Source: Brevinematales bacterium (GTDB taxonomy: Bacteria > Spirochaetota > Brevinematia > Brevinematales > Thermospiraceae). From it: DNA of 53,135 nt. Position numbers and translations under genes: made by a program. Numbering within the stretch: position 1 is the first letter of the stretch; every line of letters begins with the position of its first letter. The notes beneath the pieces are model-generated. The model was not told the origin of the DNA. It did no database searches and was given only the letters and a program-made list of their open reading frames with translations. Below are positions 5,800 through 7,392 of this stretch, in pieces. Where the stretch lies: positions 1 through 53,135 of the forward strand of contig JABLXN010000015.1 of assembly GCA_013177995.1 (NCBI GenBank). The letters are read 5' to 3'.

Positions 5800-7392
5800 C
5801 TAACGATTCCCCCCCCCATTTGTGTCTTCCGAAGGAGTGGTCGTTGATGAAGAGGCTTCTGAGTTATCAGACCGTTCAGAGTTTTCTTCTGGATGACACT
5901 CGCAATTTTCCAAACCACAGGCACTTAAAAACTCTTTCCAACTTCCAAAAGTTTTTTCTTTGATTTCCTCTTTGCTTATACTCAGCCGTTCACAATCTTT
6001 GATATAAACTTTTTTGATTTTGCTCTGGTCATTCTGTTCTTCAACCCAAGAATTATTAATACAATCCTTAATACCTATTACCTTTGGCTTTCCATCTTCT
6101 ACAACTATATCAATATAAGGATGAAAAACAGGAGATGGTACTTTCACAGGTGCCGCAATCAGAAATAGTGGAACAATTGTATTGTCTTCACCACTGGAAT
6201 GAGCCACAAGGCCATCATGGATGGCAGTGAGGATTTGACAAATGCGGCGTTTTTTTACTTCATCAGAGAGTTGTATGGTAACTTTAAAAAGATTATTATT
6301 TTTTTCCTCAACTTTAATTGTTCCGTCTACTCTATCACTATTTTTAACTTCATATTCATCTTGGCTACCATTTTTAAGAGTAATGTCATTAAATGTTTTT
6401 ACAATACCAGTTTCAATAATTAGGGCTTTTGTATTCTCATCATATTGAGGTTCTCTAGTCACAGAAAATTTATAATATTTTTTTTCATCTTCTTTTATTT
6501 CCTCAAATTCTTCAATTTCAATTTTAGGTTTATTTTGCTTTTTATCACTTTTACCTTTATTATCTTCTTTTTGTTCAACTGATTTTTCTCCCTTTTCTCC
6601 TTGATCAGACAAAGCTGATTCAATAGTTAAAATTTCTTTTTCTGATTTCTTCTTTTTACTTTTCTTACCAATTTCAGCTTCTATCTTAATCTCTTTGCCG
6701 TCAATGTAAATTCTTTTATTATTCAATTCATACCAAATATTACTCTCATCATTTTCATCTACCTTTTTTTCAACATTTGCTAATATTAAACTTTGAGGTT
6801 TTTTTACTTCTATAATTAAAGTTTTTTCCTTTTCATCATACTGTGGTTTGTTATTAACTATAAAGCTATCTTCTCCTAAGATTTTACTGTCTATAGTAAA
6901 GCTTAATTTATAAAGAGATGTATGTTCTTCTCTTTGAAATGGATTTGGCGTTATATTTAACCCATTTTGATTGGCCCTTTGAACAAGATCATGGTTTGCG
7001 TAAAAAGCCATATCTTGATTATAAGAATAAAGAGCTACTGCTTTTGTAATTCCAATTGGGGCCTTTCTTGTTAAAGAATTCTCTTCTGCAATAGTATACA
7101 TATATCCAAAAGCATCAAGTTCAGCAGATGAGATTATATCATCTTGAAGAATATCAAACTGAGCGACACTCCCTTGCCCTGTGATAGCTGCCGGTTTCCA
7201 GTCATCAGAAAATCTTTTCACTAACGTATTAAACAAATAATGTCTTATCGCTGGTCTACTAATAAATGAAACAACTTTATTTCCAACTGTCAGTTTTTTG
7301 ATAGACTGAATATTCCCTCCAATCTTTTCATCTCTGTTCAGAGCCGCTCCTTCAAAAATAATGGTAACAGTAATGTCTTTAATGTTTGACAT
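5800..7392 (-). CDS. cas7: Cascade backbone Cas7 (Cst2/DevR-like) with a large charged insertion
   Basis: The family hallmarks are present: an N-terminal [19 protein letters not shown], and a C-terminal block [19 protein letters not shown] (about 398-416). At 530 residues it is far longer than the roughly 300-residue relatives I know. The excess is a lysine/glutamate-rich segment at about 175-370 that contains an internal repeat: YKLSFT plus PQYDE plus LIIE at 161-195 and again at 307-327. The C-terminal 30 residues are Ser/Thr/Glu-rich and end in GGGNR, encoded by a run of nine G. Ribosome-binding site AGGAGG; starts 4 bp after the preceding gene. Confidence 0.88.
5809..5817 (-). repeat. G9 homopolymer in the last codons of cas7
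   Basis: Nine consecutive C on the plus strand (G on the coding strand) encode the GGG of the C-terminal NGGGNR. A one-base slip would move translation into another frame; one of these stays open to 5736 and would replace the last few residues with about 20 others. It could be a phase-variable tract or a sequencing-sensitive site. Confidence 0.6.

Follow-up and report, generated by a model that had tools for sequence, protein, structure and literature searches.

We consider it likely, with a probability of about 0.65, that the Cas7 protein encoded in the type I-B operon of this Brevinematales bacterium carries a constrained and exchangeable beta-rich accessory module, which module is set into a loop of the Cas7 palm and is duplicated in this particular protein. 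The anatomy of the insertion is near certain. The gene product itself is a genuine type I-B Cas7, as judged from its sequence family and operon context: the 530-aa protein matches TIGR02585 with 157.1 bits (E 5e-46), above the curated cut-off of 72.75 bits for that model, as well as PF01905 (E 1.2e-44); and its gene lies between cas11b and cas5b, the typical position of a type I-B cas7, within a complete operon of the order cas6-cas8b-cas11b-cas7-cas5b-cas3-cas4-cas1-cas2. The features of the window—i.e., the whole stretch of 53,135 nucleotides analysed—are the following:

5800..7392, minus strand: cas7 (type I-B, Cst2/DevR family), 530 aa, with an ATG start and no internal stop
6919..7029, minus strand: probable Cas7 thumb, residues ~122-158, outside the insertion (weak alignment to the E. 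coli Cas7, 1.7 bits, plus conserved motifs)
6889..6918, minus strand: palm strand beta-3, residues 159-168, directly before the insertion (alignments, AF2 models)
6262..6888, minus strand: whole Cas7 insertion, residues 169-377 (alignments; strand and helix order in the AF2 models)
6679..6873, minus strand: module copy 1, residues 174-238, eight predicted beta strands (repeat register, AF2 model, profile comparison)
6520..6672, minus strand: Lys-rich loop, residues 241-291, predicted to be disordered with a pLDDT below 50 (AF2 model, composition)
6268..6483, minus strand: module copy 2, residues 304-375, eight predicted strands, offset by ~130 from copy 1 (hhalign, AF2 model)
6217..6261, minus strand: palm helix alpha-2, residues 378-392, directly after the insertion (alignments, AF2 models)
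5803..5907, minus strand: C-terminal Ser/Thr/acidic tail of Cas7, residues 496-530, ~35 aa (alignments)
7397..7906, minus strand: cas11b, the small subunit, as a separate gene (PDLC01193, E 1e-55)
7890..8999, minus strand: cas8b, the large subunit (PDLC01204, E 5e-101)
4863..5711, minus strand: cas5b, the neighbouring operon gene (domain and profile matches)
2249..4903, minus strand: cas3 helicase-nuclease (domain and profile matches)
156..381, strand not given: CRISPR array at the window edge, four ~30-nt repeats with a period of 65

Upstream, a toxin-antitoxin-like HEPN/MNT nucleotidyltransferase pair (9927-10633) lies between two different cas6 genes (8996-9739 and 10630-11481), the one adjoining cas8b giving the weaker match to the Cas6 models and falling under the TIGR01877 cut-off.

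The preliminary description of this DNA had attributed about 200 extra residues to Cas7 and had proposed a comparison of length with the orthologues, which comparison bears the figure out. Ordinary Cas7b proteins have ~300-323 aa versus the 530 found here, and those of the same phylum, at ~300 aa, fit TIGR02585 from end to end (model positions 2-321 or 2-319). The stretch from the strand Y.YTVTVDLD to the helix KKKRI, occupying ~20 aa in the ordinary Cas7b, extends over ~209 in the 530-aa Cas7, this excess being additional to the ~35-aa C-terminal tail. That tail contains a Cys-Glu-Cys-His motif and is absent from all the relatives seen except the one in genome G262.

With respect to location, we lean toward placing the insertion in the loop between beta-3 and alpha-2 of the palm, outside the crRNA-contacting thumb, a mapping that derives from a weak sequence alignment. 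In the E. coli Cas7 the fingers comprise residues 59-180, the palm residues 1-58, 181-189, and those from 224 onward, and the thumb residues 190-223 (PMC5965380). A weak profile alignment (1.7 bits) places the E. coli residues 181-204—palm beta-2 plus the start of the thumb—on residues ~112-135 of the 530-aa protein, and the E. coli motif EFSSGVFYRY was paired by eye with a 10-residue stretch of the latter. The notion of the insertion as an enlarged thumb was set aside, since in this admittedly weak alignment the E. coli thumb falls ahead of the beta-3 strand that precedes the insertion. In the RRM topology the beta-3/alpha-2 loop belongs to the finger-bearing end of the palm, opposite the thumb; and from such a site the kinking of the crRNA should therefore remain intact.

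That the insertion contains an internal duplication had been claimed from recurring motifs, and the duplication proved to be larger than then described, in that it covers eight strands. The motifs PQYDE (183 and 315) and LIIE (192 and 324) recur with the same offset of 132; the self-alignment scores 70, a value reached in 3 of 2000 shuffles; and when all the long members were considered together, the profile-profile score of copy 1 against copy 2 was 23.5, the maximum across 200 column permutations being 15.5. AF2 models residues 157-396 with eight strands in each copy, the strand centres being offset by 126-136 residues. The two copies are thus homologous along one constant register, as evidenced jointly by the self-alignment, the motif offsets, the strands, and the profile comparison, although, the sequences used to fold the modules being related, the recurring strands do not count as fully independent of the repeat in sequence. 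The third motif pair of the preliminary description, YK-S-T, falls out of that register: its members, at 161 and 307, are 146 residues apart and join two different strands—the one at 161 being the usual strand of the palm—and the correct pairing is between two other 12-residue segments.

The insertion, accordingly, is a real tandem duplication of two ~65-70-residue units and an old one, since the copies have diverged too far for a clear self-match within any one of the other long members, and since 5 of the 10 codons for shared residues in the 39-nt repeat core (29 of 39 nucleotides identical) differ, all of them synonymously; which differences led us to reject a recent duplication. Copy 2 matches the one module that the short-form relatives possess (hhalign 95.6%, E 4.5e-9) and is its homologous counterpart.

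The same preliminary description had envisaged the segment between the repeats as Lys/Glu-rich and the insertion as a set of long charged arms, and had proposed that Cas7 be subjected to structure prediction. The prediction succeeded in part: the model of the insertion (AF2, residues 157-396, from a three-sequence alignment) was usable, with a mean pLDDT of 67 and values mostly of 70-85 outside the loop, residues 241-290 being disordered; whereas that of the full-length Cas7, likewise from three sequences, had a mean pLDDT of 40 with a poor core, was discarded, and did not enable the insertion to be placed on the complex. The Lys/Glu-rich segment is real—residues 230-300 have 27% Lys and 21% Glu, for a net charge of 0—and its basic part proper is the loop 241-291, containing 16 Lys, no Arg, 7 Glu, and 3 Asp. 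The image of long charged arms, however, is too simple and is not supported: about two thirds of the insertion are predicted to fold as two beta-strand modules, only ~50 residues are Lys-rich and disordered, and the insertion as a whole is slightly acidic.

The disposition of charge bears directly on the proposal deriving from that image, namely that Lys-rich loops on each protomer bind the displaced or target strand and stabilise the R-loop. The predicted disorder and the abundance of Lys in the loop would suit such a role, as would the net charge of +4 to +6 that the homologous loops have in 4 of 5 long lineages and the KKSK-KKSE-like motif that the loop of the 530-aa Cas7 shares with those of its three nearest long relatives. 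In those same four proteins, however, the ~15 residues following the loop are acidic, with a net charge of -5 or -6; none of the six sequences compared has an insertion that is basic overall, each being acidic or neutral; and the loop of the L039 lineage has a net charge of -1. Since the loop is not conserved as basic in L039 and the insertions are acidic or neutral, DNA binding is not favoured. Moreover, the structure solved for a type I-B complex shows Cas8b and Cas11b holding the non-target strand (PMC11096372), and the genes of both are present in this operon. We therefore regard the binding of nucleic acid by such loops as an unlikely explanation.

The module matched no known fold or sequence family above the noise. 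Foldseek searches with the insert models reached a best E of 0.43, and the best structural match of the module had a Z of 4.2 (rmsd 3.3, 64 residues aligned), a value within the noise; Pfam, PHROGs, and PDB sequence searches with the insertion gave no match, a PDB profile search returned no Cas7, and a comparison with nuclease families produced no convincing match.

Homologous in-frame insertions—for which the preliminary description had recommended a search in related genomes—are present in seven other genomes from two phyla. One of these, G262, belongs to another family of the same phylum (Spirochaetota), was separately binned, and has an almost identical cas7 whose 5' part is broken by a contig end; the remainder are from Bacteroidota, comprising a Mariniphaga MAG (G393, 487 aa) and G581, G467, G886, G860, and G897, with 476-484 aa. 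The distant long insertions are 23-41% identical in sequence and share aligned motifs such as I-NG-E-VD. A further six close relatives (G055, G548, G463, G891, G889, and G758, the gene being cut by a contig end in G889 and the module very short in G758) have a single module of ~65-75 residues, or ~35 in one of them; and the nearest short form, that of a Spirochaetales bacterium MAG (G055, locus L012), has 354 aa and is 68-69% identical in the N-terminal part (residues 4-210). Members of this Cas7 clade, marked by an NRDEK motif near the N-terminus and by a separately encoded Cas11b, were found in 14 of ~1,300-1,600 genomes in searches covering two phyla. The module was not found outside Cas7 in the 16 genomes searched for it, nor was any close relative found among viral contigs and plasmids; and no change in the sizes of Cas5, Cas8, or Cas11 accompanies the long form of Cas7. 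The G758 locus (L048, 3750-11302) has a divergent arrangement, with cas5-cas3 encoded on the strand opposite to that of cas8-cas11-cas7, and with a Cas8 of 487 aa and a Cas3 of 1060 aa, both of them larger.

These occurrences also dispose of an assembly or frame artefact, for which only the unusual length could be adduced and whose likelihood is now negligible: the gene recurs nearly identically in the separately binned G262, and six genomes of another phylum have homologous insertions in frame. The preliminary description would have given up its claim upon finding close relatives without the insertion together with a local assembly error; the 354-aa form is indeed a close relative that lacks the extra copy, while the independent assemblies of seven genomes contradict an error of assembly. 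Because the insertion is common to relatives in two phyla, we take it to be a real accessory that has been repeatedly gained, lost, or swapped.

The manner in which the insertion has evolved is relevant to two further explanations. In a tree of the Cas7 body, calculated with the insertion left out, the long and short forms are mixed, with three to four changes between them being required and a single long clade being rejected (p-AU 0.0012); the tree is nevertheless small, has firm support for 5 of its 13 inner branches, and the mixture could also come from recombination inside cas7 together with poor resolution. Relative to G262, the operon shows long stretches of ~100% identity within 500-7300, interrupted by sharply bounded divergent patches in cas1-cas2 (500-1700), cas3 (3500-4250), and cas7 (about 6080-6400), the last one consisting of copy 2 plus the adjoining C-terminal body; a pattern that is apparently that of a recombination mosaic or of a recent transfer. 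The amino-acid sequence of the insertion changes several times faster than that of the N-terminal body, and the same holds for copy 2 with respect to the Cas7 body: between L025 and L037 the dN is 0.29-0.35 in the copies versus 0.05 in the N-terminal body; and between the 530-aa Cas7 and that of G262 the dN/dS is 0.38 in copy 2 versus 0.06 in the neighbouring C-terminal body, the dS being equal. Among the long-long comparisons with enough changes to be measured, the dN/dS of the copies is 0.10-0.41, indicating that they are translated and under net constraint; values near or above 1 occur only in the tail and in short, poorly aligned long-versus-short stretches.

If, as one possibility, the module shielded or varied the outer face of the Cas7 filament against Cas7-binding anti-CRISPRs and was swapped by recombination, then the rapid change, the bounded patch over copy 2 in the near-identical operon of G262, and the mixture of forms on the tree would all be expected. 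The dN/dS, however, remains below 1 in the well-aligned comparisons, so that positive selection is not shown and relaxed constraint fits the faster change equally well, while the cas7 patch extends beyond the insertion and has counterparts in cas1-cas2 and cas3; we accordingly consider this reading improbable. If, alternatively, the insertion were functionless, a tolerant surface loop having simply grown and its repeats having undergone unequal recombination, we would expect what we see: a site that is a surface loop by topology, a widely variable length, an interchange of long and short forms, and tandem copies that favour contraction. Such a neutral expansion is nonetheless quite improbable, as it accords poorly with a sequence still recognisable in distant lineages, with predicted strands of fair confidence, and with the constraint evident in the dN/dS.

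We therefore return to the accessory module as the preferred explanation. The Cas7 of the clade carries an extra beta-rich module in the beta-3/alpha-2 loop of the palm RRM, and in the long form a loop that is flexible and for the most part Lys-rich connects two units of eight predicted strands. Cascade repeats no subunit as often as Cas7, six or seven of which line the crRNA, so that a row of double modules would stand on each complex; the earlier idea that every backbone protomer displays the insertion would thus agree with the known stoichiometry. Of the roles considered, that of a replaceable accessory surface touching the neighbouring protomers or the bound DNA is the likeliest, although the bracing of protomers or a contact with DNA is put forward as the main role only tentatively. 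That the exchangeable, fast-evolving double modules form a modular outer surface—directed against anti-CRISPRs or recruiting partners—that recombines independently of the crRNA-binding core we judge to be very doubtful. A single insertion in Cas7 would in any event be multiplied six or seven times per Cascade; the natural series of zero, one, and two modules offers a direct test of the outer surface of the Cas7 filament; and the site, being one at which a natural type I backbone tolerates ~200 residues, could serve for the display of domains on Cascade.

In comparison with the known systems, the protein has the N- and C-terminal body of the Cas7b/Cst2/DevR family (TIGR02585, PF01905; solved relatives 8H67 and 8FCJ) and the corresponding context of Cas5b, Cas8b, Cas11b, and Cas6; but while the ordinary Cas7b of ~300-323 aa has a short beta-3/alpha-2 loop, this clade has one module there and the 530-aa Cas7 two of them plus the charged loop. 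Large Cas7 insertions are known from the type III-Dv and III-E effectors (PMC11026444, PMC11127173), where—as in the insertion of III-Dv and the big insertion domain of the III-E Cas7-11—the Cas7 fold is likewise interrupted by a large domain. In those instances, however, the insertion is in one Cas7 unit of an RNA-targeting effector, that of III-Dv holding the 3' end of the crRNA, whereas here a repeated backbone subunit of a DNA-targeting type I system is involved, which context sets the present insertion apart; and the operon, instead of the cas10 or fused cas7 units of type III, contains cas3, cas8b, and cas11b. In the HNH-Cascade of type I-F1 (PMC11459484) one of the subunits of a type I complex likewise carries an inserted domain, but there the subunit is Cas8 and the domain a nuclease that offsets the missing Cas3, while the operon of the 530-aa Cas7 has its cas3 and the insertion is without a convincing nuclease match. 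In the open-access literature searched, with few subscription journals covered, we came across no description of a duplicated module in the backbone Cas7 of a type I system. Also related are the four inserts in the RRM core of Csa2, the type I-A Cas7, such inserts being general and resembling no known domain (PMC3150331); relative to these, the insertion of the 530-aa Cas7 is distinguished by its very large size and its tandem duplication.
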